Positions 19,165 to 49,539 of a stretch of 58,277 nucleotides of DNA are shown piece by piece (position 1 is the stretch's first letter; every line of letters begins with the position of its first letter). The position numbers and the translations under genes are program-made. The stretch lies in NCBI RefSeq assembly GCF_004341395.1, contig NZ_SLXT01000020.1:1-58277 (forward strand), read 5' to 3'. The notes under the pieces are model-generated. The model ran no database searches and had not been told where the DNA came from. It worked only from the letters and a program-made list of their open reading frames with translations. This DNA comes from Heliophilum fasciatum (GTDB taxonomy: Bacteria > Bacillota > Desulfitobacteriia > Heliobacteriales > Heliobacteriaceae).

Positions 19165-21225
19165 ATGATGAGCAGCCAAACGCTGATGATGACTGCATTC
19201 TTTTTGTTTTTGCTTGGTAGTTTATCGACGCTGACTCGCCGGATGATGGCCATAAGACTCGGTCACGCCTTACTGATGATGGCCGGTCTTTCTGGGTTCG
19301 TGGCGGCACTCCTTGTGCTCTGGTCGGGAACAGCGTGGTCCCTTGATTTGTGGTCGATGGCGCCCTTTGGCATGATAACGCTGCGGATGGATGGGCTGGC
19401 CGCTTTTTTTATTTTGCTTTTTCACGGTGTGGCCATGCCGGTAGCGTTATTTGGCAGTTCCTTTGCCGCCGGCGAGGCCAAGCCGCTGTGGCAAACGGCA
19501 CTGTTAAATCTGTTTTTTGTGGCGATTGATCTGGTGGTATTGGCCGATCAGGCGATCCTTTTTTTGCTGGCTTGGGAGAGTATGTCCTTGGTATCAACAG
19601 GACTGGTGTTGAGCCGTCATGAAGAGTCACCGGTGCGCCATGCCGGTTTTGTTTATCTAGCCATGACCCATCTGGCCGGCGGCTTTGTGGTGTTATTCTT
19701 GCTGTATTTGACGGTGCAAGCCGGTGATGGTCATTTCGCTTCGCTGGCGGAAGCGCTGCAAGGCCAAGTGCCGGAAGTGCAACTGCTGCTGCTTCTGGCG
19801 GCGTTGCTGGGGTTGGGGACGAAGGCTGGCTTAGTACCGGTACATATCTGGTTACCTCGGGCTCATCCGGTGGCATCGGCCCATGTCTCGGCCGTCATGT
19901 CCGGGCTGATGGTCAAAGCGGCTCTTTATATGTTGATCCGGGTGTTTTTTGGCTGGGCAGAAGCGTTGCCGATGGCCTTGGCGCTGCTGGTGTTGGGCGT
20001 AGGTACCTTATCGGCGCTGGCCGGTGTTTACTATGCGCTGGTGGAAAAGGATCTCAAGCGGATGCTGGCTTTCAGTACGGTGGAGAATGTGGGGATCATC
20101 GTGATGGCGCTGGGGGCAGCGTTAGTCGCGCGCGAAGCCGGGTTGGCTGAGGTGACGTCGCTGGCGCTGTCGGCAGCGTTATTTCACGGATTGAATCACG
20201 GGTTATTTAAATCGTTGCTTTTTTTGTCATCCGGTGCGGTGTACCGTGCGTCTCACGAAAAAAACATGGATCATCTGGGTGGCTTGATTCGTCAGATGCC
20301 GGCGACGGCGGCGGCCTTTTTTATCGGGTCGCTGGCGGTGGCCGGGATTCCTCTCGTCAATGGTTTTGCCAGCGAGTGGCTGACGTTGCAGAGTTTATTT
20401 TACGTGGGCGCCTTTGGGTTGAACGCCGATATGGGCATGGCGATTGGGGGCAGCGTAAACAGCGGTGCGACGATGCTCGGGGGACTTTCATCGCTGAATT
20501 GGACCTTAGTCGGCGGGGTCTTGGCGTTGCTGGCGGCGGCGCTGCTGGGGTTGGTCGGTGCGCTGGCGGCGGCTTGTTTTGTGAAGGCTTTCGGTACCGT
20601 CTTTTTGGCGTTGCCACGCTCCCAAGGTGCTCGGGAAGCCAGGGAAGTGCCGGCGGTGATGCGGGCAGCGATGGCGTTGCTGGCGGGAGCTTGTGTGTTT
20701 TTCGGTCTCTTGCCGTCCGCTGGGTTGCGGTTAACCTTGCCGGCTCTGGAGGCGGTGCTGGGGCCAACCGCATCATCGCCACTGGTGTTGATGGACCAGG
20801 GGTTAGGGTTGATTTTCTGGTCAGCGCCAGGGAATCTGCCGATAAGCGGTGGGGCGTCGGCGGGGAGCCAACTGATGATTTATGCCGTGGCTGGGCTTTT
20901 GATGGTGGTGGCGCTGTTGGTAGCCGCTGTGTTAACGCTGCTGCGTAAGCGGAGCGGGCGGGCACCGGTCGTGGCGGAGACGTGGAACTGCGGTTTGCCG
21001 CTGGAGCCGACGATGGAGTATAATGCCACTTCCTTTGCGACGCCACTACGACTGGCTCTTGGTTTTGTGGGACGTTTTGCTGTGGAGCGCGATCTTTACC
21101 GCCCCTTCGCTGACGGGTTGTTACGGTTGGCGCAGCGGATGCGACCGTTGCAGGGGGGCAATGTCCATATCTATCTCAGTTATATTTTTGCAACACTTTT
21201 GTTGCTTTTGCTGTTTGGAAGGTGA
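19165..21225 (+). CDS. hyfB: Hydrogenase-4 component B-like ion-translocating membrane subunit
   Basis: A 686-residue polytopic protein of the NuoL/MrpA/HyfB antiporter-like family with about 14-16 hydrophobic helices. The family core (ALLGLGTKAGLVPVHIWLPR, HPVASAHVSAVMSGLMVKAALY and the KDLKRMLAFSTVENVG stretch) contains the conserved Lys and His residues of the proton path. It forms part of the membrane arm that couples redox chemistry to ion transport. An upstream in-frame ATG exists (19129), but AGGGAGGA sits five bases before ATG 19165. First gene of the six-gene operon ending at 26379. Confidence 0.9.
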   Translation: MMSSQTLMMTAFFLFLLGSLSTLTRRMMAIRLGHALLMMAGLSGFVAALLVLWSGTAWSLDLWSMAPFGMITLRMDGLAAFFILLFHGVAMPVALFGSSFAAGEAKPLWQTALLNLFFVAIDLVVLADQAILFLLAWESMSLVSTGLVLSRHEESPVRHAGFVYLAMTHLAGGFVVLFLLYLTVQAGDGHFASLAEALQGQVPEVQLLLLLAALLGLGTKAGLVPVHIWLPRAHPVASAHVSAVMSGLMVKAALYMLIRVFFGWAEALPMALALLVLGVGTLSALAGVYYALVEKDLKRMLAFSTVENVGIIVMALGAALVAREAGLAEVTSLALSAALFHGLNHGLFKSLLFLSSGAVYRASHEKNMDHLGGLIRQMPATAAAFFIGSLAVAGIPLVNGFASEWLTLQSLFYVGAFGLNADMGMAIGGSVNSGATMLGGLSSLNWTLVGGVLALLAAALLGLVGALAAACFVKAFGTVFLALPRSQGAREAREVPAVMRAAMALLAGACVFFGLLPSAGLRLTLPALEAVLGPTASSPLVLMDQGLGLIFWSAPGNLPISGGASAGSQLMIYAVAGLLMVVALLVAAVLTLLRKRSGRAPVVAETWNCGLPLEPTMEYNATSFATPLRLALGFVGRFAVERDLYRPFADGLLRLAQRMRPLQGGNVHIYLSYIFATLLLLLLFGR

Positions 21226-21230
21226 TGACC

Positions 21231-22157
21231 ATGGAATTATGGACGGGCGCCTTACAGGCGGTACTGGCGTTGGTGGCGGCACCGTTGCTGCAGGGCTGGA
21301 TCAAGTGGCTGAAAGCACAGATGCAGGGGCGGCACGGTCCGTCGATTTGGCAGCCCTATCGTGATCTGTTCAAGTACAGCCGTAAGGGTGAGGTCATTTC
21401 CGGGCACACGTCGTGGATCTTTCGAGCAGCACCGGTGGGGCTGTTGACGACGACGGTGGTGGCGGCCATGCTGCTGCCGTCGCCCTTGGTAGCGGCGGCT
21501 TTGCCGGCGATGAGCGGCGCTGCGATCGGTGAATTGCTTTTATTTGTTTATCTGCTGGCGATGGGCCGTTTTTGCTTGGCCCTGGCCGGTCTGGATGCCG
21601 GCAGTTCTTTTGGCGGGATGGGCAGCAGCCGGGAGATGTATGTAGCGGCGCTGGCCGAACCGGCCTTGATCTTGGCGGCACTGGTGTTGATGATCGATGC
21701 CGGAACGACCAACTTGACGGCGATCGGCGAAACGGTGCGGCAAGCAGGTTGGGATTGGTGGTCGGCCAGTCACTTGCTGGCCTTTTTGGCACTGGCGGTG
21801 CTCGTTGTCGCCGAAACGGGCCGGGTCCCCGTCGATAATCCCGATACGCATTTGGAACTGACGATGATCCATGAAGGAATGATCTTGGAATACTCTGGCC
21901 CGTCGCTGGCGTTGATTCAACTGGCGGTCTGGATGAAGCAGTGGTTATTGCTTAACGTATGGCTGCAGGTGATGGTGCCCTTCGGACAGGGATGGATGTT
22001 TGCCGGTTTGTTTTGCTTGCTTTTGGCGTTGGTCGGTGTGGGCCTGGCGCTGGTGGAGTCTTTTTTTGCGAAGGTGCGGATTTTTCGTGTGCCCCGGATG
22101 ATGGGGGCATCGCTGATGTTAGGGGTGCTGGCGTTGCTGGCGCGGTTTGTACAGTAG
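21231..22157 (+). CDS. hyfC: Hydrogenase-4 component C-like (NuoH/HycD family) membrane subunit
   Basis: About 308 residues with eight or so membrane helices, homologous to complex I subunit NuoH and to HycD/HyfC. The conserved cytoplasmic loops (GPSIWQPYRDLFKYSRKGEV near the N-terminus and ETGRVPVDNPDTHLELTMIHEGM) contact the hydrophilic hydrogenase module. Possible starts are GTG 21222, ATG 21225 and ATG 21231. GGAAGGTG at 21217-21224 favours 21231, five bases after the hyfB stop. It anchors the catalytic subunits to the membrane arm. Confidence 0.9.
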   Translation: MELWTGALQAVLALVAAPLLQGWIKWLKAQMQGRHGPSIWQPYRDLFKYSRKGEVISGHTSWIFRAAPVGLLTTTVVAAMLLPSPLVAAALPAMSGAAIGELLLFVYLLAMGRFCLALAGLDAGSSFGGMGSSREMYVAALAEPALILAALVLMIDAGTTNLTAIGETVRQAGWDWWSASHLLAFLALAVLVVAETGRVPVDNPDTHLELTMIHEGMILEYSGPSLALIQLAVWMKQWLLLNVWLQVMVPFGQGWMFAGLFCLLLALVGVGLALVESFFAKVRIFRVPRMMGASLMLGVLALLARFVQ

Positions 22158-22168
22158 GAGGTGAGCCG

Positions 22169-22810
22169 ATGCAATTGGTAGAGATCGTGGGGACCGTGTT
22201 GTTGCTGGCAGCGATCTGGCTGGTCGGGAATCGCCGCTTAGACCGAGCCGTAGTGAACTTGACGATCCAAGCGCTTTTGTTGACGCTGGTGGCCTTGATC
22301 ACGGCCGTCGTGGCCGGCGTCCATCATATGTATGGTGTAGCTTTACTGCTGTTTTTGATTAAAGTGGTGGCCATGCCGATGGCTTTTTTCTGGGCCCTGC
22401 GCAGGTCGGAGCGGGTCTTGGAAATGCAGCCGGTCTTATCGCCGGTGGTGGCCACGGTGGGAGCGGTAGCGCTGGTGGTCATGGTTTATTTTGCAGTGGG
22501 CTCGATTCGGCTCCCGGTACCGGCGGTGATGAGCGGGCTGTTACCGGTATCGCTCAGTGTGATTTTGCTGGGGATCTTGACGATGATCACTCATCGCAAG
22601 GCCTTGCTGCAGGTGGTTGGGTTGATGACGATGGAAAACGGACTGTTTATGTTAGCCATGGCATCGACCTTTGGTATGCCTTTTATCGTCGAACTGGGAA
22701 TTTTCTTTGATGTGCTTGTAAGCGCGGTGATCATGGGCGGTTTGACCCATCAGATGAAAGTGGTCTTTGCTTCCACTGATACGGATCGACTGAATCAATT
22801 GAGGGGGTAA
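22169..22810 (+). CDS. hyfE: Hydrogenase-4 component E-like membrane subunit
   Basis: A 213-residue membrane protein with about six helices, matching the length of E. coli HyfE (about 216), whose C-terminal part is NuoK-like. The loop LTIQALLLTLVALITAVVAG and the RRSERVLEMQPVLSP stretch fit the family. The open frame runs back to 21959 inside hyfC, but GGAGGTG seven bases before ATG 22169 decides the start. Placed between HyfC- and HyfF-like genes as in hyf operons; no HyfD gene is present. Confidence 0.82.
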   Translation: MQLVEIVGTVLLLAAIWLVGNRRLDRAVVNLTIQALLLTLVALITAVVAGVHHMYGVALLLFLIKVVAMPMAFFWALRRSERVLEMQPVLSPVVATVGAVALVVMVYFAVGSIRLPVPAVMSGLLPVSLSVILLGILTMITHRKALLQVVGLMTMENGLFMLAMASTFGMPFIVELGIFFDVLVSAVIMGGLTHQMKVVFASTDTDRLNQLRG

Positions 22811-22814
22811 GCTC

Positions 22815-24293
22815 GTGGAGATGTGGTTCTTGGCGATCCCGGCGGTAACGGCCTGCTTGTGCCTATTCGTTCCGTCGCCGGCATGGAAGCATCGGATCAA
22901 TGCACTGGGGGGCTTACTCTTACCGATAGCGGCGATGCCTTTGATTGCGCAGGTCCTCCGCGAGGGGCCGCAAGTGCGCTGGGGCGGTCATCTTTATGTC
23001 GATGCATTGTCGGCGCTATTATTGATGATTATTGTTTTGGTTGGTTTTTGCGCGGCTTGCTTTTCCCTTGCTTATATGGAAAGGGAACGGCAGGCGGGGA
23101 TTATCGATACAGCCAAATTGGGTCGCTATTATCTTTGGATGCATCTTTTTTTGCTGACGATGCTGGCAGCGGCGATGGTCAATAACCTGGGTTTGCTGTG
23201 GGTCGCCATCGAAGCGACGACGCTCGTTTCGGCACTGCTCGTTGGTTTTTATGGACGGGAAGCTTCCATTGAAGCGGCCTGGAAATATATTTTGCTTTGC
23301 TCTGTAGGGATCGCGTTGGCACTTCTGGGCTTGATTTTGCTTTATTTTGCGGCCATGCAATCGGGCCTGATGACGCTGAATTGGTCGGAATTGTTACCGG
23401 CGGCGGGGCGGTTCGATCCGGAATTGGTCAAGTTGGCTTTTATCTTTGTGGTGATTGGCTTTGGCACCAAAGCGGGTTTTGCACCGATGCATAACTGGAT
23501 GCCCGATGCGTACAGCCAAGCGCCGTCGCCGATCAGTGCTTTGTTATCGGCCGTGCTGATCAATTGTGCCCTCGTCGGGGTGTTTCGTTTTCATGTGCTC
23601 GTTGTGCGGGCCGTGCCTGGTGATTTTGCCTCTCATCTTTTGCTGGGGTTCGGGATCTTTTCCATGGTGATCGCTGTGCCTTTTGTGCTGTTGCAGCATG
23701 ATATCAAGCGCTTGTTGGCTTATTCCAGTGTGGAGCATGTGGGCTTGATTGTCGCGGCCGTAGGGATAGGCTCACCCTTGGCGCTTTTTGGGGCAACGTG
23801 GCACTTGTTTAACCATGCTTTGACGAAGGCCGCTTTGTTTCTGATCGTCGGTCGCTTGGAGCAGCAATATAAGACCCGTAAGATTGCCCGGATTCGCGGG
23901 GCTCTTGCGCGGACGCCCTGGTTAGGTGCGGCGCTGCTGGCGGGAATCTTGGCGTTAGCCGGGGCGCCACCCTTTGGGTTGTTTATGAGTGAGCTGACTG
24001 TCGTGGCGGCCGGATTAGGAGCGCCGAAGGGGTGGACAGGAATGGCCTTGTTGGCGCCGTTGCTATTGGCTTTTACCGGTATGGTTTACCATGTGGGAAA
24101 GATGGTCCTGGGGATGCCGTCGTTAAAGTGGCAGCGCTCCGCGGCGATGGTGCAGGCAACCTCCGGTAGCCCCCTCGAATGGATTGCCTTGTTGCCGCTG
24201 GCGCTGGTGTTGATGATGGGCATCATGCTACCTGAAGTAGTTCGTGAAGGTTTGTTGCAAGCAGCGGCAGTGTTAGGAGGAGCAGGGCGATGA
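22815..24293 (+). CDS. hyfF: Hydrogenase-4 component F-like ion-translocating membrane subunit
   Basis: A 492-residue polytopic protein of the NuoM/NuoN/HyfF group. Conserved family segments include LGLLWVAIEATTLVSALLVGFY (the conserved membrane Glu is near residue 135), FGTKAGFAPMHNWMPDAYSQ (Lys and His of the discontinuous helix), PSPISALLSAVLINCALVG and KRLLAYSSVEHVGLI. It gives the complex a second antiporter-like module beside HyfB. The start is GTG 22815 after GAGGGGG, four bases past hyfE. The stop overlaps hyfG by four bases. Confidence 0.9.
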   Translation: MEMWFLAIPAVTACLCLFVPSPAWKHRINALGGLLLPIAAMPLIAQVLREGPQVRWGGHLYVDALSALLLMIIVLVGFCAACFSLAYMERERQAGIIDTAKLGRYYLWMHLFLLTMLAAAMVNNLGLLWVAIEATTLVSALLVGFYGREASIEAAWKYILLCSVGIALALLGLILLYFAAMQSGLMTLNWSELLPAAGRFDPELVKLAFIFVVIGFGTKAGFAPMHNWMPDAYSQAPSPISALLSAVLINCALVGVFRFHVLVVRAVPGDFASHLLLGFGIFSMVIAVPFVLLQHDIKRLLAYSSVEHVGLIVAAVGIGSPLALFGATWHLFNHALTKAALFLIVGRLEQQYKTRKIARIRGALARTPWLGAALLAGILALAGAPPFGLFMSELTVVAAGLGAPKGWTGMALLAPLLLAFTGMVYHVGKMVLGMPSLKWQRSAAMVQATSGSPLEWIALLPLALVLMMGIMLPEVVREGLLQAAAVLGGAGR

Positions 24294-25861
24294 TTCGTAA
24301 GGTGTTGAGTGCCTGGGTATCTCTAAAGAGCGATCGGCAGGGGAACTTATGGGGTACCGTGCTGCCGGAACAAGGGCCGGAAGTAGCCCAAGTGGTTCAT
24401 GGGCAGTTGGGGTTACCGCTGACGATGATGGTGGCCGTTGATGAGCGGGCAAAAAGCGGTGTTTATCGTTTGACCTACTTGTTTTCCTTGATCGACAAGC
24501 CGGCTTTTTTGGCCCTGGAAATGGCTGTGGATGGACAGGCGGCCGAGTATCCTTCGTGGACACCGGCAGTACCGGCAGCCAACTGGCATGAGCGAGAAGC
24601 GCGCGATTTGCTGGGGGTGGTGCCGGTCGGTCATCCCGATCCGCGCCGGCTGGTGTTGCACGGTAACTGGCCCCATGGGTATCATCCGCTCCGTCAGGAT
24701 GCACCGAGTGAGGTGGCGGCCACCGCTCCACGGCGCTTTTCCTTTCGTCCGCCTGGTGAAGAAGCGATGCAGATCCCGGTAGGGCCGATTCATGCCGGGA
24801 TCATTGAGCCTGGTCATTTTCGTTTCACTGCCGTTGGCGAGCAGATTCAAGCTCTGGAAGCCAATTTGTTTTATACCCATCGCGGCATCGAAAAATGGTG
24901 TGAAGGCAAGCCGGTGATGACGGTGTTAGCGGCAGCGGAGCGGCTTTGCGGCGTTTGCTCGCTGACGAATAGCTTGGCTTTTTGTCAGGCCGTGGAAGCG
25001 ATTGCGAAAGTGGAAGTGCCGCCGGCAGCGCGATACGGGCGGGTGCTGCTCTGTGAACTGGAGCGGCTGTATAATCATATCGGCGATCTGGGCAATATCT
25101 GTGCCGGCACAGCGGTAGCGCTGGGGACGATGGCGGGCACACGGATCAAAGAGCAACTGCAACAACTCAACGACGCGCTGACCGGATCGAGGTTTTTGCG
25201 GGGGATCTTGGTTCCCGGTGGGCTGCGCCGACCCCTAGCCGCTGAAGGGATCGACAAAGTGCTCCGGGAAGTACGGCGTGATGCAGCCATGTTGGCCGAT
25301 ACGCTGTTGGGGCATGCATCGTTTATGGATCGTTTGGATCACACGGGAATCGTGGACCGGGCGACGGCTTGGCGACTGGGGGCTGTCGGTGTCGCGGCGC
25401 GAGCTTCCGGGATTGACCGTGATTGCCGCCGTGATCATCCCCATGCGGCCTATCACGAGCTGCGTTGGCAGGTGCCGGTACATCAGGAAGGGGATGTGGC
25501 GGCGCGATTAAAAGTGCGCATTGAAGAAATCGAACAAAGTTTATCCCTGATTGAGCAGGCCCGAGCGGCATTGCTGGCGATGGCGACGACAACGACAACG
25601 ACAATGAAGCCTGGCGACTGGGCGGCGGTGATCGACGAATACCCGGCGGGACGGGGCTGGGGCGTAGCGGAATCGCCGCGAGGGGAAACGGTTCACTGGT
25701 TGGAGATTGACGCACAAGGCTTGGTGAGCCGTTACCGGGTCCGTACGGGGTCCTATGCCAACTGGCCCGTGGTGGTGGCGGCTGTGCCAGGCAATATGGT
25801 GCCTGACTTTCCGCTGATCAATAAAAGCTTCGAACTTTGCTACGCTTGTAGCGATCGCTAG
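24290..25861 (+). CDS. hyfG: Group 4 [NiFe]-hydrogenase large subunit (HyfG/HycE-like, NuoC-NuoD fusion)
   Basis: A 523-residue catalytic subunit. Residues about 20-140 resemble the 30-kDa NuoC domain, the rest the 49-kDa/[NiFe] large-subunit domain. Both Ni-Fe ligand pairs are present: C220-G-V-C223 (ERLCGVCSLTN) and C517-Y-A-C520 (FELCYACSDR). This distinguishes a true hydrogenase from complex I or cysteine-less hydrogenase-related complexes. Two oddities stand out. The protein stops right after CYACSDR, with no C-terminal extension for a maturation endopeptidase, as reported for a few group 4 enzymes such as CooH. The usual CxxCxxxH of the first motif has Asn (N227) in place of His. ATG overlaps the hyfF stop. 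Confidence 0.88.
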   Translation: MIRKVLSAWVSLKSDRQGNLWGTVLPEQGPEVAQVVHGQLGLPLTMMVAVDERAKSGVYRLTYLFSLIDKPAFLALEMAVDGQAAEYPSWTPAVPAANWHEREARDLLGVVPVGHPDPRRLVLHGNWPHGYHPLRQDAPSEVAATAPRRFSFRPPGEEAMQIPVGPIHAGIIEPGHFRFTAVGEQIQALEANLFYTHRGIEKWCEGKPVMTVLAAAERLCGVCSLTNSLAFCQAVEAIAKVEVPPAARYGRVLLCELERLYNHIGDLGNICAGTAVALGTMAGTRIKEQLQQLNDALTGSRFLRGILVPGGLRRPLAAEGIDKVLREVRRDAAMLADTLLGHASFMDRLDHTGIVDRATAWRLGAVGVAARASGIDRDCRRDHPHAAYHELRWQVPVHQEGDVAARLKVRIEEIEQSLSLIEQARAALLAMATTTTTTMKPGDWAAVIDEYPAGRGWGVAESPRGETVHWLEIDAQGLVSRYRVRTGSYANWPVVVAAVPGNMVPDFPLINKSFELCYACSDR

Positions 25862-25872
25862 GGGGGACTGCG

Positions 25873-26379
25873 GTGTTTCGTTTATTGTGGCACCATCTTG
25901 CCAAGACGCCGCCATCGCCTCCCATTGCAGCAGCCCAAACCGATGGGCATGCCGGTGAAGCGGTGCTGGTGCGTCCGTTACCCGATGGTTGGTGTGGTAC
26001 ATCGGTACATATGCGCCATGTGGATTGTGGCTCCTGTAATGGCTGTGACTGGGAACTCAGTGCGCTGTTGAATCCGGTCTATGATATTCAGCGCTATGGG
26101 TTAGATTTTGTGGCTTCACCGCGTCATGCTGATTTGCTGCTGGTTACCGGTTCGGTGACCCGGCACTTGCAGGAAGCCTTGACGATGACATACGAAGCGA
26201 CGCCGGATCCGAAGGTGGTTGTCGCTGTCGGTGATTGTGCTTGCGGCGCCGGACCTTTTTCCGGTGCCTACGCTTGTGGTACCGGAGCCGAAGATCATGT
26301 ACCTGTTCACTTGAAAATTCCTGGTTGTCCGCCCAGTCCGGCGATGATCATTGCGGCGTTACGCGCTCTCCTCAAGTAG
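25873..26379 (+). CDS. hyfI: [NiFe]-hydrogenase small subunit (HyfI/HycG-like, NuoB family)
   Basis: A 168-residue electron-transfer subunit. The [4Fe-4S] ligands match the NuoB/HycG pattern: DCGSCNGCDWE (C55, C58), GDCACGAGPFSG (C122) and PGCPPSP (C152). It passes electrons between the Ni-Fe site and an external carrier. The start is GTG 25873, 11 bases after hyfG. No ferredoxin-like HyfH or HyfA gene follows, so this single cluster is the only iron-sulfur centre encoded in the operon. The last codons lie in the stem and loop of the operon terminator. Confidence 0.9.
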   Translation: MFRLLWHHLAKTPPSPPIAAAQTDGHAGEAVLVRPLPDGWCGTSVHMRHVDCGSCNGCDWELSALLNPVYDIQRYGLDFVASPRHADLLLVTGSVTRHLQEALTMTYEATPDPKVVVAVGDCACGAGPFSGAYACGTGAEDHVPVHLKIPGCPPSPAMIIAALRALLK

Positions 26380-26396
26380 GAGGGCGCTTTTGCGTT
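26363..26396 (+). terminator. Terminator of the hydrogenase operon, overlapping the hyfI stop
   Basis: GCGCTCTCCT (26363-26372) pairs with AGGAGGGCGC (26378-26387), a 10-bp stem with the TAG stop at the loop, followed by TTTTGCGTTTGT. Confidence 0.7.
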
Positions 26397-26454
26397 TGTA
26401 ATGGCCGTCAGCGGGCAATCTATGGGGAGTGAATTTGTTGGTGGAGGGGTGCGC

Positions 26455-27123
26455 ATGGCGCGCTATCCGTTGGGTTCAATGGTGTTACTGGTGATGTTGA
26501 TCTTTTGGTTGTTTGGCTTGTGGCGCGGCGTAGCGCAACGGCTCGGCATCACCTATCCGGCGCTGGTGGCGGCGACGGCGCTGTGGTGGTTGATGGCTTT
26601 GTTTGATGAGATGAATGCCAGTGACAACGGTATTTATCTGGCCAGCACGTTGCTACCGTTGATCTTTGGCATGATTTTGTGGCGGCAGCAGCCATTGAGT
26701 CAGTGGCGTTTTGCTGTGGCGGTAGCTTTGGTTGCTTTTTTCGGTTGGGTTGCTCGTTTTTGGGTGGGGCTGGAACCGGAAGGGTTTTACCTCAACGGCC
26801 ATGGCGCGCTGGCGCTGCTGAGCGCACTGGTGGCGACGGCGATTTTGCGCGATGGGCGCGCCGTGTTGATCGCGCTTTTGTGGGGAACGGTGGTGGCGGA
26901 AGTCGTCAGCGGTAGTTGGCTCGCCCTGACTGTAGGGTGGCGCAATATAACGTGGGGAAGCGGACTGGCCTTTGATCGCGTGGTCTTAGCGTCTTTTTTT
27001 TCCTTGCCCTTGTCCTACCTGGGTGACTGGCTCGATCGCCCATTAGCCAACTGGCTCGGAAAAAAAGCAGAAGCAAGCAACAAGCAGCATTCGTTCGAAG
27101 GTGCTCGTGATGATGAACGCTGA
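26455..27123 (+). CDS. Hypothetical membrane protein (YphA-like position)
   Basis: A 222-residue integral membrane protein with seven or so hydrophobic helices and a short basic C-terminal tail (KKAEASNKQ). No motif identifies a family. Its place upstream of a SpoIIP-like gene and the DUF512-der-plsY-gpsA-spoIVA block parallels the small sporulation membrane gene yphA/seaA near der in Bacillus, but that equivalence is inference from location only. An upstream in-frame ATG (26401) is ignored because GGAGGGG lies seven bases before ATG 26455. It overlaps the following gene by 14 bases. Confidence 0.65.
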   Translation: MARYPLGSMVLLVMLIFWLFGLWRGVAQRLGITYPALVAATALWWLMALFDEMNASDNGIYLASTLLPLIFGMILWRQQPLSQWRFAVAVALVAFFGWVARFWVGLEPEGFYLNGHGALALLSALVATAILRDGRAVLIALLWGTVVAEVVSGSWLALTVGWRNITWGSGLAFDRVVLASFFSLPLSYLGDWLDRPLANWLGKKAEASNKQHSFEGARDDER

Positions 27124-27967
27124 GCGCAGGATCATCGGAAGGCGCTGTCTGGGCGCGCTGATTCTCCTGCCGTTGCTCTTTGCAGCGATAGCCGGACTGG
27201 CTTGGATCAGCTTTCGCTATGGGCCGTGGCACCGGATTGCCGAAGCGGCGCCCTGGGAAGTGCAACGCAGGGTGATTGATGAGCGCGGCGGCTCCTTGGC
27301 GATCACCTTTCGGCCTTGGCAACCCGGGGAAGGGCTGCTGGATGAGCAAGGTCGATATTGGCAGGTCACGGAAGTCTCGGAACAAGCTATCCAGGTGAAA
27401 TCGGCGTCCCCGGCGGACCGATGGGCAGAAGATGATTTGGTGAGCCGATGGGGGCCGGCTTGCCAGCTACGTTTTCCTGACGATGGAGGGCGCGGCACGG
27501 TTGTCTTGATCACCGAAATAAGCGACAAGGTCCAATGGGAGACGCTTGAGCCGCTGACGCAGGCGGTGCAACGTGTTGGCTATGAAGTCGTCGTGGAAGA
27601 TGCCACAAAAATTGACCAACTCCGGTTACAAGCCTGGGCAGAAAAAGGCCCGGCGGCCATTGTGCGCATCCATCAACAAACAACACCGCTTTGGTCTAAC
27701 GGTGAGCCGGATCGTCGTCCGGCCATCGGGGTGGCCCTTAATCACGTGCGCGTGGCCGCCAACAGCCGTTTTGCCGAGCGATGGGCACTGGCCCTGCCGG
27801 CACCGGAACGGCCGCTGGTGTTTTGGCATCGTCAAGCGTCACAGCAACATTTGTGCCCGCGCATGCTTGACCTATGGGTGCCGCCAGCAGTGCCCGGCGA
27901 ATTGGCCCAGGCAGAGAAAAGGATGGATGCCTTGGGGGGAGCTTTAGGCAGGGCACTGGACTCGTAA
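27110..27967 (+). CDS. SpoIIP-like protein, probably catalytically degenerate
   Basis: A 285-residue protein with one N-terminal membrane anchor (about residues 10-35) and an extracytoplasmic domain. The order of strands (GTVVLITEISD..., then a helix, QRVGYEVVVEDAT, then ...GPAAIVRIHQQTTP) parallels the SpoIIP peptidoglycan amidase domain, where the corresponding sites carry the zinc ligands H-T-H and H-R-D. Those catalytic His/Asp residues are not conserved here, so it may bind rather than cut peptidoglycan. A SpoIIP-annotated gene commonly occurs between this membrane gene and DUF512 in Clostridia, which supports the assignment. Homology is distant. Starts GTG 27101/27107 and ATG 27110/27113 are all possible; GAAGGTG spacing favours 27110. 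Confidence 0.5.
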   Translation: MMNAERRIIGRRCLGALILLPLLFAAIAGLAWISFRYGPWHRIAEAAPWEVQRRVIDERGGSLAITFRPWQPGEGLLDEQGRYWQVTEVSEQAIQVKSASPADRWAEDDLVSRWGPACQLRFPDDGGRGTVVLITEISDKVQWETLEPLTQAVQRVGYEVVVEDATKIDQLRLQAWAEKGPAAIVRIHQQTTPLWSNGEPDRRPAIGVALNHVRVAANSRFAERWALALPAPERPLVFWHRQASQQHLCPRMLDLWVPPAVPGELAQAEKRMDALGGALGRALDS

Positions 27968-42637: not shown

Positions 42638-43483
42638 GTGCAAGATGAAAATATAAGCGGTTCCGGTGAACGCTTCGATCAAACAAGGCGGTATGAGCAA
42701 CCATACCGCCTTGTTTCGATCGAGCGCATCGCTGACGGCCGGAAGCAGGAAAAAGACGATCCGGTTGTCTGTGAATCGCCGGTGACGATCTATGTAAACG
42801 GGGAGGAACTGGTGACGCTGCTGGCCAGTCCGGAGTATCTGGAAGATCTGGCTCTGGGGTTCTTGGTGGCCGAAGGTTTTATTCGAGACTTGTCGGACGT
42901 GACGGAGCTGCGCTGGGAACGGGTGACGGGGCAGGTGTTTGTGGAAGGAAAAACATCACTGATCGCGCCGAAGACGTTTATGAAACGGTATGTGACGACG
43001 GGCTGCGGCAAAGGAACGACTTATTATGATGTGACCGATACGCAACTGGTGCGTCCCCTCCACGATCGCCCGCTGCAAGTGTCGGCGGAGCAGATTCTCC
43101 AGGCGATGGGCGAGATGCAAGGGCGATCGGATCTGTATCGTGAGACCGGCGGTGTGCACGGGGCGGCGCTGGCCAGTGCGCAAGGCATCACCATCTTTCG
43201 GGAAGATGTAGGGCGTCATAATGCCGTCGATAAGATCATCGGCCACTGTTTCCGGGCAGCGATCCCGCTGGATGAATGTTTTTTGCTGACATCGGGACGA
43301 ATCTCTTCGGAAATCTTGCTGAAAGTCGCGAAGATGGGCATTCCTTTGCTGGCTTCCCGCTCTGCACCGACCGATCTGGCCCTCAAGTTGGCCGAAGAGA
43401 TCGGTGTGACCGTCATCGGTTTTGTCCGGGGACGGCGGATGAATATTTATACTCATCCGGGGCGGATAATCTGTGATTTGTAA
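42638..43483 (+). CDS. fdhD: Formate dehydrogenase accessory sulfurtransferase FdhD
   Basis: A 281-residue protein that transfers sulfur from IscS-type desulfurases to the molybdenum/tungsten cofactor of formate dehydrogenase. Conserved segments are EYLEDLALGFLVAEGFI, VTTGCGKG (the loop cysteine), TGGVHGAALA, EDVGRHNAVDKIIG and LTSGRISSEILLK. The start is GTG 42638 with GGAGG upstream. No formate dehydrogenase gene is in the window, so its client lies elsewhere. Last gene before the hdr operon. Confidence 0.95.
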   Translation: MQDENISGSGERFDQTRRYEQPYRLVSIERIADGRKQEKDDPVVCESPVTIYVNGEELVTLLASPEYLEDLALGFLVAEGFIRDLSDVTELRWERVTGQVFVEGKTSLIAPKTFMKRYVTTGCGKGTTYYDVTDTQLVRPLHDRPLQVSAEQILQAMGEMQGRSDLYRETGGVHGAALASAQGITIFREDVGRHNAVDKIIGHCFRAAIPLDECFLLTSGRISSEILLKVAKMGIPLLASRSAPTDLALKLAEEIGVTVIGFVRGRRMNIYTHPGRIICDL

Positions 43484-43620
43484 TTTCCACCACTAGGTTT
43501 TTTCTACTATCCGTGATAGGATTAATATATCGACATCCGGTTGTTTGACAGGGGATTTCCCATGACGGACACTGGATTTTTTTTTAGGGTTACCGGGCTA
43601 CTCCAAAGGAGGGACGCAAA

Positions 43621-44193
43621 ATGGGGACCGTGATGGTATCTACGACCGTCGACAATAGCGAAGATTTTCGCCGTCGGCTTAAAGAGGTGTACGGCATTGA
43701 TACCGCTCTTTGTTATCAATGTGGCAAATGTGCCGCCGGTTGTCCAACGGCTTTTGCGATGGAAAATACAGTTCGCCAGTTAATCCGCATGATTCAAATG
43801 GGATTGATTCGCGAAGTACTTTCTTCCTATAGTATCTGGGCTTGTGCCGCTTGTGAAACTTGCTCCGTGCGCTGTCCACGGGAAGTGGAACCGGCGCGGC
43901 TGATGGAGTCGCTGCGCATTGAAGCGCAAAGAGCGGGACTGGTCTCGGATAAAACCAGCAAAACTTTTCATGATCTGTTTTTGCAGTCCGTGGAGGATCA
44001 TGGATTGCTGCATGAAGTGGGCATGATGGCGCGCTTAAATGTATTGACCGGCAACTTGTTTAGCAATGCTGAATTTGGGCCGGCCATGCTGGCTCAAGGC
44101 AAATTGCATTTTTTGCCGAAAAAGATTGAAAACCCGGAAGCTGTAGCGCGCATCTTTGCCAATGTGCGCAAAAAGCGAGGTGAAATCAAGTGA
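43621..44193 (+). CDS. hdrC: Heterodisulfide reductase subunit C-like protein
   Basis: A 190-residue iron-sulfur protein. Two [4Fe-4S] motifs are complete: C31-x2-C34-x2-C37-x3-C41 (CYQCGKCAAGCP) and C75-x2-C78-x2-C81-x3-C85 (CAACETCSVRCP). It relays electrons from HdrA to the HdrB active site. GGAGGG lies upstream of ATG 43621. The stop overlaps the hdrB GTG by four bases. It is the first gene of a seven-gene operon; the 137-base upstream gap shows no clear promoter. Confidence 0.93.
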   Translation: MGTVMVSTTVDNSEDFRRRLKEVYGIDTALCYQCGKCAAGCPTAFAMENTVRQLIRMIQMGLIREVLSSYSIWACAACETCSVRCPREVEPARLMESLRIEAQRAGLVSDKTSKTFHDLFLQSVEDHGLLHEVGMMARLNVLTGNLFSNAEFGPAMLAQGKLHFLPKKIENPEAVARIFANVRKKRGEIK

Positions 44194-45065
44194 GATATGG
44201 GTACTATCCTGGTTGTTCGTTGACTGGAACCGGCATCGAGTATGGCCTGTCTGCTGATGCGGTGATTCGCCATCTCAATATGGATATGAAGGAGATCCGC
44301 GATTGGAATTGCTGCGGCGCTTCATCGGCCCATAACCATGATCCGTTGTTGTCGATCGCTTTGCCGGCGCGCAATCTGGCCTTGGCGGAGCAACAGGGGT
44401 TTCGTGAAGTGGCTGTTCCTTGTGCCGCCTGTTACCAGCGCATCAAAGCGGCGGAAGTGGCGGCACGGGATCCGCTAAAGCGTCGGGAAATGGAAGAAGT
44501 GATTGAAGAAGAATTGAGCGGTGCCATTGTGGCTCGTTCACTTTTGGAGATCATGGTACATGATATCGATGACAGTGCATTGGCAGCCCAGATCCGCCGT
44601 CCCTTGCAGGGATTGAAAGTGGCTTGCTACTACGGCTGTTTACTGGTGAAACCCCGTGCGATCGCCATGGATGAAGCGGAAAATCCCATGACGATGGATC
44701 ACTTGATGGAACGGCTCGGGGCCACACCGGTGGAATGGGGCTATAAAACGGAATGTTGCGGCGGCAGTTTGACCCTGACGCGACCCGATACAGGCGTGCA
44801 GATGACGGCAGAAGTCCTGAAGTATGCAAAGCTGGCCGGCGCCGATTGTGTAGTGACACCTTGTCCGCTTTGCACATCCAATCTCGATATGCGGCAAGGG
44901 ACCGCCGAAAAAAAATTAGGCCGTTCCCTGGGATTGCCGATCTATTACTTTACGGAACTGATGGGCTTCGCTTTTGGTCTGCCGATGAAAACACTGGGAC
45001 TTGATCGCCACTTTGTGGAAGCAACGGGCCTGTTGCAATCGTTGCCGGTCCCGGCCAGCGGCTGA
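44190..45065 (+). CDS. hdrB: Heterodisulfide reductase subunit B-like protein
   Basis: A 291-residue protein with two cysteine-rich CCG domains: WNCCGASS with PCAACYQR, and TECCGGSL with TPCPLCTSNLD. In methanogens these bind the two noncubane [4Fe-4S] clusters that reduce CoM-S-S-CoB; in bacteria without those coenzymes the disulfide substrate is unknown. Early residues YYPGCSLTGTG are typical. The start is GTG 44190 with GAGGTG eight bases upstream. Confidence 0.93.
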   Translation: MRYGYYPGCSLTGTGIEYGLSADAVIRHLNMDMKEIRDWNCCGASSAHNHDPLLSIALPARNLALAEQQGFREVAVPCAACYQRIKAAEVAARDPLKRREMEEVIEEELSGAIVARSLLEIMVHDIDDSALAAQIRRPLQGLKVACYYGCLLVKPRAIAMDEAENPMTMDHLMERLGATPVEWGYKTECCGGSLTLTRPDTGVQMTAEVLKYAKLAGADCVVTPCPLCTSNLDMRQGTAEKKLGRSLGLPIYYFTELMGFAFGLPMKTLGLDRHFVEATGLLQSLPVPASG

Positions 45066-45076
45066 GGAGGTAAAAG

Positions 45077-47059
45077 ATGAAGCGAATAGGAGTTTTTGTT
45101 TGTCACTGCGGCAGCAACATTGCCCACACGGTGGATTGTAAGCAAGTGGCTGATGAAGCCGCAGCCATGCCGGGCGTTGTCCATGCCCAGGAATATAAGT
45201 ATATGTGTTCGGAACCGGGACAAGTGTTGATTCAAGAGGCCGTGAAGGAACACAATTTGGATGGGTATGTCGTTACGGCTTGTTCACCGCGGATGCATGA
45301 AACGACTTTCCGCAAATGTGCCGGTCGGTGCGGGCTTAATCCTTACATGGTCGAGCAGGTGAATATTCGTGAGCATTGCTCATGGGTGCATGCCGATAAA
45401 GAAGCCGGCACGGAAAAAGCCATCGACTTGATGCGCATGGGTGTGGCCAAGGTGCTCAAGAATGAGCCCTTGAAGGCGGCAACGATTCCCATGACCAAGC
45501 GCGCTCTGGTTATCGGCGCCGGAATTGCCGGGATTCAAGCGGCCCTGGACATCGCTGATAACGGCTTTCCGGTGACGCTGCTGGACCGGGAACATTCGAT
45601 TGGCGGGCGGATGGCCCAGATCGACAAGACCTTCCCCACGCTGGATTGCTCCGCTTGTATTTTGACGCCAAAAATGGTGGAAGTGGCCCAGCATCCCAAT
45701 GTGGAGCTGATGACCTATGCCGAAGTGGAGTCGGTCGGCGGTTTTATCGGCTCTTTTGATGTGACGATTCGCAAAAAAGCACGCTATGTCGATACCAAGC
45801 GGTGTACCGGCTGCGGCGCTTGTATTCAAAAATGTCCCAGCAAAGTGCCTTCGGAGTTTGAGATGGAAATGGGTCCTCGTAAGTCCATCTATGTGCCCTT
45901 TCCGCAGGCGGTGCCCAATAAACCGGTCATCGATGCGCCTCATTGTCGCTATTTGCAGACTGGCAAATGTGGGATCTGTAAGAAGATTTGCCCGACCGAC
46001 GCGATCCGCTTTGATGATCAAGATGAAGTCGTCACAGAGCGTTTTGGTACGATCGTGGTCGCCACGGGCTATCAGCAGTTTGATATCAGCGCTTATGAAG
46101 AATACGGCGGCGGCCGGATCCCTGATGTGATCACGGGGATGCACTTGGAGCGCTTATTGAATGCCTCCGGGCCGACATCCGGCAAGATCAAGCGGCCTTC
46201 TGACGGCAAAGAACCAAAGAACATTGTGTTTATTAAATGCGTCGGTTCCCGCGATGAAGCGAAGAATCGACCTTATTGTTCCAAGACTTGCTGTATGTAT
46301 GTGGCCAAACAAGCGACGCTACTCAAGGAAAAACTGCCAGCATCGAAATCATACATCTTCTATATGGATGTGCGCACCGGCGGTAAAAATTATGAAGAAT
46401 TTTACCGGCGCACGCAGGTCGATTATGACGGCCACTATATCCGTGGGCGTGTGTCGAAGATTTTCCAAGTGGGCGATCGGTTGATCGTGCGCGGCGACGA
46501 TTCGCTTTTGGGCCGCCCGGTGGAAATCGAAGCGGATCTGGTGGTCCTGGCGGCGGGGATGGATCCGCAACATGACGCCCGGGAACTGGCCCGGACGCTG
46601 GGGATCGCTTATGATGCCCATGGCTGGTACACAGAAGCTCATCCCAAACTGAAGCCGGTAGAAACGCAAACGGGCGGTATTTTCCTGGCCGGCGCTTGTC
46701 AAGGCCCCAAGGATATTCCTGATTCGGTGGCCCAAGGTTCAGCGGCGGCCGTCAAAGCCTCCGCCTTGCTGACCAAAACAGAACTGACGGGGGAACCGAT
46801 GATCGCCCAGTGCAATGAAGCAATGTGTTCCGGCTGCGGTCTTTGTGTAACCATCTGCCCCTACAAAGCGATTACACGGCAGCCCAAGCAGGAACGGATT
46901 CATGGTAAGATGCGCGAACGGATGGTATCGACCATCAACAGCGGCCTTTGCCAGGGCTGTGGCGCTTGTACCGTTGCCTGCCCGTCCAGTGCGATGAATA
47001 TGGGCGGCTTTTCCGATGAACAAATCATGGCGGAGGTGGATGCTTTATGTCAGCGCTAA
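45077..47059 (+). CDS. hdrA: Heterodisulfide reductase subunit A-like flavoprotein
   Basis: A 660-residue iron-sulfur flavoprotein, the electron-bifurcating core of Hdr complexes. In order: an N-terminal domain with VFVCHCGSNIA and C-P-R cysteines, a thioredoxin-reductase-like FAD domain (GAGIAGIQAALDIADNGFPVTLLDRE, GGRMAQID), an inserted ferredoxin domain (CTGCGACIQKCPS; CGICKKICPTDA), and a C-terminal ferredoxin domain (CSGCGLCVTICPYKA; CQGCGACTVACPSSAM). The FAD would split electrons between high- and low-potential acceptors. GAGGAGG precedes the ATG. It overlaps the MvhD-like gene by 13 bases. Confidence 0.95.
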   Translation: MKRIGVFVCHCGSNIAHTVDCKQVADEAAAMPGVVHAQEYKYMCSEPGQVLIQEAVKEHNLDGYVVTACSPRMHETTFRKCAGRCGLNPYMVEQVNIREHCSWVHADKEAGTEKAIDLMRMGVAKVLKNEPLKAATIPMTKRALVIGAGIAGIQAALDIADNGFPVTLLDREHSIGGRMAQIDKTFPTLDCSACILTPKMVEVAQHPNVELMTYAEVESVGGFIGSFDVTIRKKARYVDTKRCTGCGACIQKCPSKVPSEFEMEMGPRKSIYVPFPQAVPNKPVIDAPHCRYLQTGKCGICKKICPTDAIRFDDQDEVVTERFGTIVVATGYQQFDISAYEEYGGGRIPDVITGMHLERLLNASGPTSGKIKRPSDGKEPKNIVFIKCVGSRDEAKNRPYCSKTCCMYVAKQATLLKEKLPASKSYIFYMDVRTGGKNYEEFYRRTQVDYDGHYIRGRVSKIFQVGDRLIVRGDDSLLGRPVEIEADLVVLAAGMDPQHDARELARTLGIAYDAHGWYTEAHPKLKPVETQTGGIFLAGACQGPKDIPDSVAQGSAAAVKASALLTKTELTGEPMIAQCNEAMCSGCGLCVTICPYKAITRQPKQERIHGKMRERMVSTINSGLCQGCGACTVACPSSAMNMGGFSDEQIMAEVDALCQR

Positions 47060-47589
47060 GCCCCAAATCGGGTTCGCCGGCCGATTGCGCCGTCACGGAG
47101 GGCCATGTGGGCCTGCCGGTACTCGATCCGCCACCAACAGCGGCGCCGGATACGGGCAAGACCAAAAACGGCGAATGGCAACCCTATATTGTCGGCTTTG
47201 CTTGTAACTGGTGTACCTACGCCGGTGCGGACTTGGCGGGGCTGTCGCGCATGCAGTATCCGCCGAATATGCGGCTGGTGCGGGTGCCCTGCTCCGGCCG
47301 GGTCAATCCGCAGTTTGTCTTGCGGGCTTTTCAAAAAGGTGCCGATGCAGTGCTGGTGGCCGGTTGCCACCCCGGTGATTGCCATTATGGAACAGGCAAC
47401 TATTTTACGCGCCGCCGGTTTTTATTGATGCAGCGCTTGCTCACCTTTATGGGTGTCGATCCGCGCCGCTTTCAAGCACGGTGGATTTCTGGTTCGGAAG
47501 CGCCGAAATTCCGCGATGTTGTGACTGAACTGACCGAACAAGTGCGCCCACTGGGACCGAACCGTCTCTGGAGGGAGGTAGAGCCTTGA
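47047..47589 (+). CDS. flxD: MvhD/FlxD-like hydrogenase iron-sulfur subunit
   Basis: A 180-residue protein whose C-terminal ~135 residues match the MvhD family (VGFACNWCTYAGADLAG, VRVPCSGRVNP, VAGCHPGDCHYGTGN). Five conserved cysteines bind a [2Fe-2S] cluster that links an electron-donor module to HdrA. An extra ~40-residue Pro/Ala-rich N-terminal segment is absent from standard MvhD. With no MvhA/MvhG hydrogenase here and FlxA-C genes following, the FlxD name fits. It overlaps hdrA by 13 bases and the next gene by four. Confidence 0.9.
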   Translation: MSALSPKSGSPADCAVTEGHVGLPVLDPPPTAAPDTGKTKNGEWQPYIVGFACNWCTYAGADLAGLSRMQYPPNMRLVRVPCSGRVNPQFVLRAFQKGADAVLVAGCHPGDCHYGTGNYFTRRRFLLMQRLLTFMGVDPRRFQARWISGSEAPKFRDVVTELTEQVRPLGPNRLWREVEP

Positions 47590-48509
47590 AGGAATTGCAT
47601 AATGTAAATGTAGCGATGCGTACACTGGCGCGGGAACTGCTGGAGTCCGGTACCGTCGCCGGTGTGTATGGATGGAAAAAAGGCAGTCGGCCGACGCTGA
47701 CGTCGCCCTTATATATTCAAGATGCCGCCAAAGCCGATCGGCTGGCCTACGATCAATACGCGGTATCGAACTTATCGGCGTTGCTCCTCGATCACCGCAA
47801 CAATGACAAGAAGCGGGCGATCTTTGTCAAAGGCTGTGATAGCCGCGGCGTCGTGCGCCTCTTGCAGGATCAACAGATCACGCCGGAGCAGGTGCTGGTG
47901 ATCGGCCTACCCTGTCCGGGTATGGTTGATGAAGCCGGTTCGCTTTTGACGAAATGTGCCGAGTGCCGCTTTCCCAACCCGGTCATGGCCGATCAGGTCC
48001 TGGGCGGTGTGGAAGTTTCCAAGCAACCGTCGGCACCGACCGGTGTAACGGCGGAAGCCGCGCGGAAAGTCGGTGTGGGCAGCCGCGCCGGTGAGCGCAT
48101 GGCCCAGGTGGCCCAACTGGAAGGGAAGACAGCGGCCGAGAAAGAAGCCTATTGGGCGGAGCAGCATGACAAGTGCATTCGTTGTTATGCTTGCCGCAAC
48201 GTTTGTCCGGCATGCAATTGCCGTGACTGTATTTTTGATACGGAGAAAAAAGGCTGGGTCAGTAAAGCGGCCACATCGTCGGCCAATGCCTTCTTCGCGA
48301 TCACCCGAGCCATGCATGTGGCCGGGCGCTGCGTCGACTGCGGTGAATGTGAACGGGTTTGCCCCATGGACATTCCGATCATGACGGTCAACCGCAAACT
48401 GCAGCAAGATATTGAAGCGCTTTTCGGCCCCTATGATGCCGGTGTGGACGAAACGGTCGTACCGCCGTTGGGACGCTATCAAACCGATGACCCGGAAGAA
48501 TTCCTCTAA
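47586..48509 (+). CDS. flxC: FlxC-like iron-sulfur protein
   Basis: A 307-residue protein. The N-terminal half (FVKGCDSRGVVRLLQ, VIGLPCPGM, KCAECRFPNP) resembles the coenzyme F420 hydrogenase beta-type N-terminal domain. The C-terminal half carries a dicluster ferredoxin region: CIRCYACRNVCPACNCRDC and CVDCGECERVCPMD. It is expected to pass electrons between FlxA/B and the Hdr module. The start is TTG 47586, overlapping flxD, with GGAGG upstream. The FlxC name is assigned from the mirror order D-C-B-A relative to the flxABCD cluster of sulfate reducers, so the B/C assignment is inference. Confidence 0.75.
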   Translation: MKELHNVNVAMRTLARELLESGTVAGVYGWKKGSRPTLTSPLYIQDAAKADRLAYDQYAVSNLSALLLDHRNNDKKRAIFVKGCDSRGVVRLLQDQQITPEQVLVIGLPCPGMVDEAGSLLTKCAECRFPNPVMADQVLGGVEVSKQPSAPTGVTAEAARKVGVGSRAGERMAQVAQLEGKTAAEKEAYWAEQHDKCIRCYACRNVCPACNCRDCIFDTEKKGWVSKAATSSANAFFAITRAMHVAGRCVDCGECERVCPMDIPIMTVNRKLQQDIEALFGPYDAGVDETVVPPLGRYQTDDPEEFL

Positions 48510-48525
48510 GGCAGGTGAAAAGCGA

Positions 48526-49539
48526 TTGAAAGCGTTAGCCAAAAAAAATCTGGCCGATGCCTTGGCCCTGTTGGCGGGCCAGGCAACCGTCTGGGTGCCG
48601 GCCAAGGTGGCCGGTGTGACGCGCTTTGCCCCCTGGTCCCCAGCGGTGACGCTTGATCTAGAAGCAACGCCGCCAGCGGTCAGCCCCAAAGAAATCTTGC
48701 TGCCGGAGACGGAAAGCCTCTACCGCTACAGTGCTTACGGCATGGATGTGACTTTTGAAGCGGTCGAGCAAGAAGTACCGCCGACGATCATCTGGGGAAT
48801 TCATTCCTGTGATGTGCAGGCGATTCTTTGCCAGGATGATGTGTTTTTAAGCCGTGAGCCTCAAGATGCTGCTTATGCCAAGCGGCGGGCGGCCACAACG
48901 CTGGTCGCATTGGCTTGTACAACGCCGGGACCGGACTGTTTTTGTACGTCTATGGGGCTTGAGCCGGCGGAACATGCATCAACGGATGTGCAACTCCACA
49001 TACTGACGGATGGTTACGGTGTGGAGGCGCGTACAGCGCGCGGCGAAGAAATCGTTGCGCGCTTGGCCGAAAAAGGGCTGTTGGTGGAGACCATCGAACC
49101 GCCGGCAAAAGCCCAGGCATGTACCCGGGCGGTGAATCCGGAAGGCATCGATAAAAAGTTAGTGGAGATGTTTGAGCATCCCTATTGGGATGAACTGGCG
49201 GCAACGTGCTTAAACTGCGGTGCCTGCACGTTCTTGTGCCCGACGTGCCACTGTTTTGATCTGACGGACCATCGCCGCAATGCTCATGAGGGAACAAAGA
49301 TTCGCTGCTGGGATGCTTGCATGTTTACGGAATATACGGTGATGGCCGGCGGTCATAATCCCCGGCCCGGTAAAAAAGAGCGTGTCCGGCAGCGGTTTAT
49401 GCATAAGTTACGCTATTTTCCTGAGCGTTACGGCAAGTGGCAATGTACAGGCTGCGGCCGTTGTGTCGCCCGTTGTCCGGTGCATATCGAGATCACCGAT
49501 GTGATCAAAGAAGTTGGCGAGGTGACCTTGGATGGGTGA
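48526..49539 (+). CDS. flxB: FlxB-like (AsrA-type) iron-sulfur protein
   Basis: A 337-residue protein similar to the AsrA/HydB-like dicluster ferredoxin family. Features: WGIHSCDVQAI, a middle CTTPGPDCFCTSMG cysteine motif, and two C-terminal [4Fe-4S] motifs (CLNCGACTFLCPTCHC and CTGCGRCVARCP). Such subunits sit between an NAD(P)H-oxidising flavoprotein and downstream clusters. The frame extends upstream to 48412 inside the previous gene. TTG 48526, eight bases after GGCAGGTG, is the better start. It overlaps flxA by eight bases. Confidence 0.78.
   Translation: MKALAKKNLADALALLAGQATVWVPAKVAGVTRFAPWSPAVTLDLEATPPAVSPKEILLPETESLYRYSAYGMDVTFEAVEQEVPPTIIWGIHSCDVQAILCQDDVFLSREPQDAAYAKRRAATTLVALACTTPGPDCFCTSMGLEPAEHASTDVQLHILTDGYGVEARTARGEEIVARLAEKGLLVETIEPPAKAQACTRAVNPEGIDKKLVEMFEHPYWDELAATCLNCGACTFLCPTCHCFDLTDHRRNAHEGTKIRCWDACMFTEYTVMAGGHNPRPGKKERVRQRFMHKLRYFPERYGKWQCTGCGRCVARCPVHIEITDVIKEVGEVTLDG

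Follow-up and report, generated by a model that had tools for sequence, protein, structure and literature searches.

How do electrons enter a membrane-bound group 4 [NiFe] hydrogenase whose operon encodes no ferredoxin-type subunit? The question is raised by six hyf-like genes in the order B-C-E-F-G-I, which form a complete operon at positions 19165-26379 of contig NZ_SLXT01000020.1 of Heliophilum fasciatum. The stretch analysed covers positions 1-58,277 of this contig and is called the window below, as is the row of its operon in our trees. In our opinion there is a roughly 55% chance that the operon encodes a six-subunit, membrane-bound, energy-converting hydrogenase of group 4f that has lost its ferredoxin domain, in which case a soluble carrier would dock on the small subunit HyfI, H2 would be evolved and ions would be pumped. 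Group 4f has barely been studied, and the comparison given here bears on its function.

The small subunit and the missing ferredoxin

An earlier note on this DNA had read the gene content as HyfB, C, E, F, G and I homologues, with no HyfA, HyfD or separate HyfH and no formate dehydrogenase in the operon, and family matches confirm this. Its baseline, the Hyf system of E. coli, needed correction. The same six genes recur in the same order in about 45 relatives, across the class and the phylum and in Sulfoacidibacillus, and this family has neither HyfD nor HyfA; its HyfH-like part is a domain of HyfI. In most of the six-gene relatives the N-terminus of HyfI is a fused ferredoxin, with two CxxCxxCxxxC (4Fe-4S) motifs ahead of the cluster domain, and HyfG stops right after the second pair of cysteines. 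In group 4a operons, whether from the same phylum, from E. coli or from Rhodovastum, HyfG runs on for a further 32-33 residues, and genes for HyfD and HyfH are also present. Judged from sequence comparison, the operon of the window is a member of a branch that lost the fused ferredoxin domain and retained the Ni-Fe ligands.

HyfI (25873-26379, on the plus strand like all features of the operon; 168 residues; Oxidored_q6 1.5e-30) keeps the ligands of one proximal cluster, C55, C58, C122 and C152, and its closest solved relatives are MbhJ (1.1e-33) and HycG (2.7e-32). The cluster domain is preceded by 49 residues, compared with 113-186 in the ferredoxin-fused relatives, and no CxxCxxCxxxC motif is present. 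A ferredoxin hidden by a wrong start or in another frame is ruled out by an in-frame stop just before the GTG start of hyfI, which follows the hyfG stop after 11 bases. The resemblance of the short N-terminal leader of ferredoxin-less HyfI proteins (such as MWNLLKRSLKMGRLSE) to that of their fused counterparts suggests that the domain was lost from within.

Every small subunit with a ferredoxin partner that we checked, be the partner fused, separate or degenerate (six-gene fused proteins, 4a, Ech, MbhJ and HycG), carries an aromatic residue, Tyr or Phe, two positions ahead of the PGC ligand motif. Ferredoxin-less small subunits mostly have Lys at this position, or else Glu, Ala, Ser, Arg or His; for L040, L099 and L152 the position was judged by eye. 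In the window it is Lys148 (26314-26316, computed from the HyfI start at 25873), two residues before Pro-Gly-Cys152. The aromatic residue may contact the ferredoxin partner, and its absence supports the view that a docking site was lost here.

Could the ferredoxin be encoded elsewhere? The host genome (3.14 Mb, 99% complete), searched with a fused ferredoxin domain, returned generic matches of at most 33 bits, and ten genomes with ferredoxin-less operons contained no close homologue of it, the best match scoring 45 bits. The same search recovered the fused HyfI of three control genomes at 246, 126 and 81 bits (one control being the source of the query). Near the operon we found no ferredoxin motif; the first Fe-S genes within the window begin at 43.6 kb. 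Given that ten genomes yielded no close homologue and that the aromatic residue is lost, the ferredoxin has probably not been relocated. The earlier note had argued that the donor must dock directly on the small subunit or that the missing subunit is encoded elsewhere. Its premise stands, as there is no HyfH and one cluster is predicted, but the genome searches make the second branch unlikely. With no HyfH and a single predicted cluster in HyfI, the donor would thus need either the small subunit or some unrelated partner as its docking surface.

An electron-input subunit might conceivably be supplied in trans, examples being NuoI, borrowed from complex I, and a tightly binding generic ferredoxin subunit. 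The host does have NuoI (at C9), as well as several 2[4Fe-4S] proteins, and NuoI-sized proteins are among the matches in several of the ferredoxin-less genomes. However, no candidate is close to the fused domain (scores of 45 bits or less are at the level of generic ferredoxins), NuoI is required by its own complex, and HyfI is without the aromatic residue typical of partner-binding subunits. We therefore consider a subunit in trans unlikely.

Class assignment and phylogeny

On the basis of its gene set and the synteny of its relatives, the operon would be a ferredoxin-less variant of HydDB group 4f (Ehf). It shares two features with this group: four Ni-Fe cysteines in L2 and L4, in the arrangement R-x-C-G-x-C ... 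C-x-x-C, and six subunits without HyfA, HyfD or a separate HyfH. The N-terminal ferredoxin domain of HyfI, which is common in the 4f family and not stated as defining it, is absent from the window and from the whole sub-branch, including its Desulfitobacterium-like loci. HyfG falls in the family that contains loci syntenic with the 4f operon of D. hafniense, and is separated from 4a with a support of 100. In three ferredoxin-less relatives (L050, L052 and L053) a conserved block lies 3' of hyfI, which in L050 comprises a yqfC-like gene (YabP family), yqfD, phoH, a 7TM-HD hydrolase gene, ybeY and a diacylglycerol kinase gene. In synteny, as judged from gene descriptions only, these loci match the content of the 12-gene operon Dhaf_4277-4288 of D. 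hafniense DCB-2 (PMC3306737). The D. hafniense proteins ACL22288-93 have been called group 4f, and were detected; their abundance was lower when H2 rather than lactate served as donor (PMC9888536), which fits H2 evolution. We infer that they are Dhaf_4283-4288, from the offset at which ACL22276 equals Dhaf_4271 (the formate dehydrogenase alpha subunit in PMC3306737 and PMC9888536). EhfE of Desulfosporosinus orientis has also served as a 4f representative (PMC7811984). The ferredoxin-less variant has apparently not been singled out in the open literature searched.

The earlier note had suggested a distinct, respiratory or bifurcation-linked type of hydrogenase. We see no support for a distinct type: the six-gene set is the Ehf architecture, there is synteny with the D. 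hafniense 4f operon, and HyfG would, by and large, fall inside a class already known to do without HyfH, an outcome that the note itself had named as refuting its reading. Nor is there support for a link to bifurcation, as the only bifurcation-type cluster of the window (43.6-50.4 kb) is 17 kb away; none was noticed beside the operons of relatives, where no search aimed at such clusters was made.

Group 4f proves modular in this comparison. The ferredoxin domain of HyfI and the Ni-Fe site are each kept or lost, which gives four kinds of complex. Both are kept in L039-L044, L096-L098, L100 and L101. The Ni-Fe ligands are lost or incomplete and the ferredoxin is kept in L045-L048, L055, L058-L065, L104, L111, L114-L117, L119, L125 and L134. 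The Ni-Fe ligands are kept and the ferredoxin domain is absent in the window, L007, L008, L049-L054, L056, L057, L099, L102 and L103. Both are lost in the Azospirillum, Rhizobium, Cupriavidus and Paraburkholderia copies (L152, L153, L155, L156, L158 and L160). In L105-L110, L112 and L113, which stand in two separate places in the tree, the Ni-Fe ligands are kept and the ferredoxin domain is degenerate, retaining at most one intact motif.

As a separate observation, half of the Ni-Fe ligands are replaced by Ser (SCSC) in the clade L045-L048, which keeps the fused ferredoxin; genomes G020 and G027 each hold a copy of this type together with a ferredoxin-less, Ni-Fe-intact copy.

A tree of HyfG alone proved too unstable for the window row, and trees of five or six subunits were used instead. 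The five-subunit tree groups the window with L102 and eight rows from family f2 in a clade of ten, all ferredoxin-less (Shimodaira-Hasegawa-like approximate likelihood ratio support, 97). A wider clade, supported at 94, takes in every ferredoxin-less row but L099 and L103; it also contains the proteobacterial cysteine-less set and one Meiothermus row whose domain is degenerate. A single-clade origin of the ferredoxin-less rows that bear Ni-Fe ligands is not rejected (approximately unbiased test, p 0.89), the constrained tree being 21.6 log units better. Many independent losses of the ferredoxin, as raised by a quick tree, were not upheld by this test; L099 and L103 have no settled place, and degenerate domains occur in two more lineages. 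The window row has a long branch and an odd composition, and its exact place in the tree is unsure.

Genus g6 has a TerD / sigma-54 regulator locus that holds the ferredoxin-fused operon L042 in one case and a ferredoxin-less operon in others (L049, L051, L054 and L056). The two kinds sit on different branches of the tree, that is, one has replaced the other in place. The shared locus suggests that the two kinds are interchangeable and have an equivalent or similar function.

The Ni-Fe site

HyfG (24290-25861; 523 residues) is a fusion of the 30 kDa and 49 kDa types (Complex1_30kDa 6e-24, Complex1_49kDa 1e-42), and its closest solved structure is HycE of the E. coli formate hydrogenlyase (4.4e-83). 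All four Ni-Fe ligands are present (C220, C223, C517 and C520). The earlier note had concluded from these cysteines that the complex is not a cysteine-less, hydrogenase-related one (Ehr), and this holds. The L1 Glu and most other conserved residues are also kept, and the reading frame is intact. The host genome further encodes HypD, a [NiFe] maturation protein (at C25; 4.9e-132).

Two features of HyfG had been overlooked. The protein ends in CYACSDR, with no extension beyond the second cysteine pair. And residue 227 (24968-24970, codon AAT) is Asn, so that L2 reads RLCGVCSLTN compared with the motif RxCGxCxxxH; the position is His in at least 90% of the 30 relatives compared, and several cysteine-less relatives likewise carry Asn.

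A working model and its alternatives

Our preferred reading, a ferredoxin-less 4f hydrogenase fed by a soluble carrier, would work as follows. A soluble low-potential carrier, most likely a 2[4Fe-4S] ferredoxin or a flavodoxin of the host, would receive electrons from the photosynthetic reaction centre or from fermentative enzymes, and would dock where the ferredoxin domain once sat. The one proximal cluster in HyfI would take up the electrons from the carrier and hand them on to the Ni-Fe centre in HyfG, the site at which H2 would be formed from protons. The energy would drive ion translocation through HyfC, HyfE, HyfB and HyfF, and the hydrogenase reaction is possibly reversible.

In favour of this reading, the host genome encodes the type I reaction-centre protein PshA, from which we take the host to be a phototrophic heliobacterium, and small 2[4Fe-4S] ferredoxins. 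It also has complex I, at least three other NiFe large-subunit genes and carbon monoxide dehydrogenase-like proteins. Carbon monoxide dehydrogenase was considered as a dedicated donor and set aside: in the stretches read, none of the genes resembling it stands with a hydrogenase or an obvious CooF. The membrane arm is made up of the HyfB-like antiporter-type subunit (19165-21225; 686 residues; Proton_antipo_M 1.4e-48, hydrogenase 4 subunit B model 3.6e-146), the HyfC / NuoH-like anchor (21222-22157; 311 residues; NADHdh 7.2e-38), the HyfE / NuoK-like subunit (22169-22810; 213 residues; hydrogenase 4 membrane subunit model 6e-26) and the HyfF-like antiporter-type subunit (22815-24293; 492 residues; Proton_antipo_M 6.3e-51, hydrogenase 4 subunit F 5.8e-133). 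Charged, His and Cys columns conserved in at least 90% of relatives are kept at 15 of 15 positions in HyfB, 16 of 16 in HyfC and 19 of 20 in HyfF (H233 being replaced by Tyr). The retention of the charged residues makes ion translocation plausible.

More tentatively, and with rather less than even confidence, we propose that the window belongs to a conserved single-cluster branch in which soluble ferredoxin or flavodoxin, taking the place vacated by the domain, would bind right at the proximal cluster. This would be the shortest electron-input module known in the superfamily, and the losses of the ferredoxin module and of the Ni-Fe site would be separate events. The form that keeps the Ni-Fe site and drops the ferredoxin thus yields a testable prediction on electron entry. 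D. hafniense, the closest studied owner, is culturable and proteomic work has detected its proteins, which makes it an organism in which the 4f electron donor could be tested.

Several points weigh against the hydrogenase that we propose. The other aligned members that bear Ni-Fe ligands have the L2 His, and Asn227 could mean that the active site of the window copy is altered. The operon is absent from the other eight genomes of the family that were compared, where more distant homologues of complex I and hydrogenases are found; its role is thus dispensable in the family. The argument from the docking residue draws on one or two independent events, too few for a p-value from an independent-pairs test. 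Finally, the donor and the direction of the reaction, like the docking site and the ion pumping, are what we infer.

Might formate dehydrogenase feed the electrons, which would make the operon a minimal formate hydrogenlyase? HydDB labels 4f "formate-coupled (putative)" and gives its role as undetermined (PMC5037454), the genome has one formate dehydrogenase alpha subunit (TIGR01591, 830 bits), and fdhD lies in the window. However, this sole formate dehydrogenase is encoded together with NuoE- and NuoF-like subunits and is thus probably an NAD(P)-linked enzyme. No linker of the HycB/HyfA type was found beside the operon or beside the formate dehydrogenase genes, and no formate dehydrogenase subunit was noticed beside the operons of relatives, whose gene contents were read, with no family scan of every locus. 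In our opinion formate coupling is quite unlikely.

We give a similarly poor chance to an energy-dependent uptake of H2, in which the ion gradient would pay for the reduction of a low-potential carrier by H2, or the complex would simply recycle H2 from nitrogenase. It is true that Ech-type group 4 enzymes are physiologically reversible (HydDB table, PMC5037454), but the lower abundance of the D. hafniense proteins with H2 as donor (PMC9888536) speaks against uptake, as do the other NiFe large-subunit genes that the host already has. Very improbable, lastly, is a degenerating or Ehr-like complex that is losing its Ni-Fe site: Asn227 and the long, compositionally odd branch would agree with it, but the four cysteines, the L1 Glu, most conserved residues and the intact frame are all kept, and HypD is present.

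Neighbouring genes

Ribosome-binding sites are plausible for most of the six genes. A terminator-like hairpin at the end of hyfI (26363-26387, a consensus match only) suggests that the transcription unit may end there. Two open reading frames follow 3' of the operon (26401-27967; 240 and 288 residues); they match no family in Pfam or NCBIfam, and the operons of relatives have no homologue of them alongside. Positions 42638-50368 hold fdhD and then an HdrC-HdrB-HdrA-MvhD cluster with AsrA-like and AsrB-like subunits and one further Fe-S subunit; the cluster resembles the FloxABCD/HdrABC clusters of flavin-based bifurcation, and no link to the hydrogenase was seen. A Cas3-like HD nuclease-helicase at the end of the window (55753-57912) probably belongs to a CRISPR locus.

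Comparison with known systems

With group 4f the operon shares the six-gene set, the four cysteines and the HyfG family; it differs from its many members with a fused ferredoxin in having none, and in Asn227. The formate hydrogenlyase and hydrogenase 4 of E. coli (4a) have homologous B, C, E, F, G and I subunits, but group 4a also has HyfA, HyfD and HyfH and, in many cases, HycH/HycI genes, and its large subunit is extended by about 33 residues at the C-terminus; none of these occurs in the window. Ehr complexes, such as that of Sulfobacillus (PMC4378227), share the six-gene architecture, and the Rhizobium and Azospirillum copies are also without the ferredoxin domain; unlike the window, with its full set of four, Ehr complexes lack the Ni-Fe cysteines. 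Mbh (4d) and Ech (4e) evolve H2 and pump ions at the expense of ferredoxin, much as in our working model, but their two-cluster ferredoxin subunit is a separate protein and their membrane modules differ.

The Rv0082-Rv0087 locus of Mycobacterium tuberculosis is not known to encode a ferredoxin, and beside it lies Rv0081, a regulator of the ArsR type. Among our relatives, an ArsR-family gene lies near hyfI in L007, L008, L099, L103 and L104, and directly 3' of it in the first four; by gene lists, the position of Rv0081 beside the M. tuberculosis hyc locus recalls this arrangement. That locus, described as "formate hydrogenlyase", likewise consists of six hydrogenase-like genes next to its regulator (PMC6901956).

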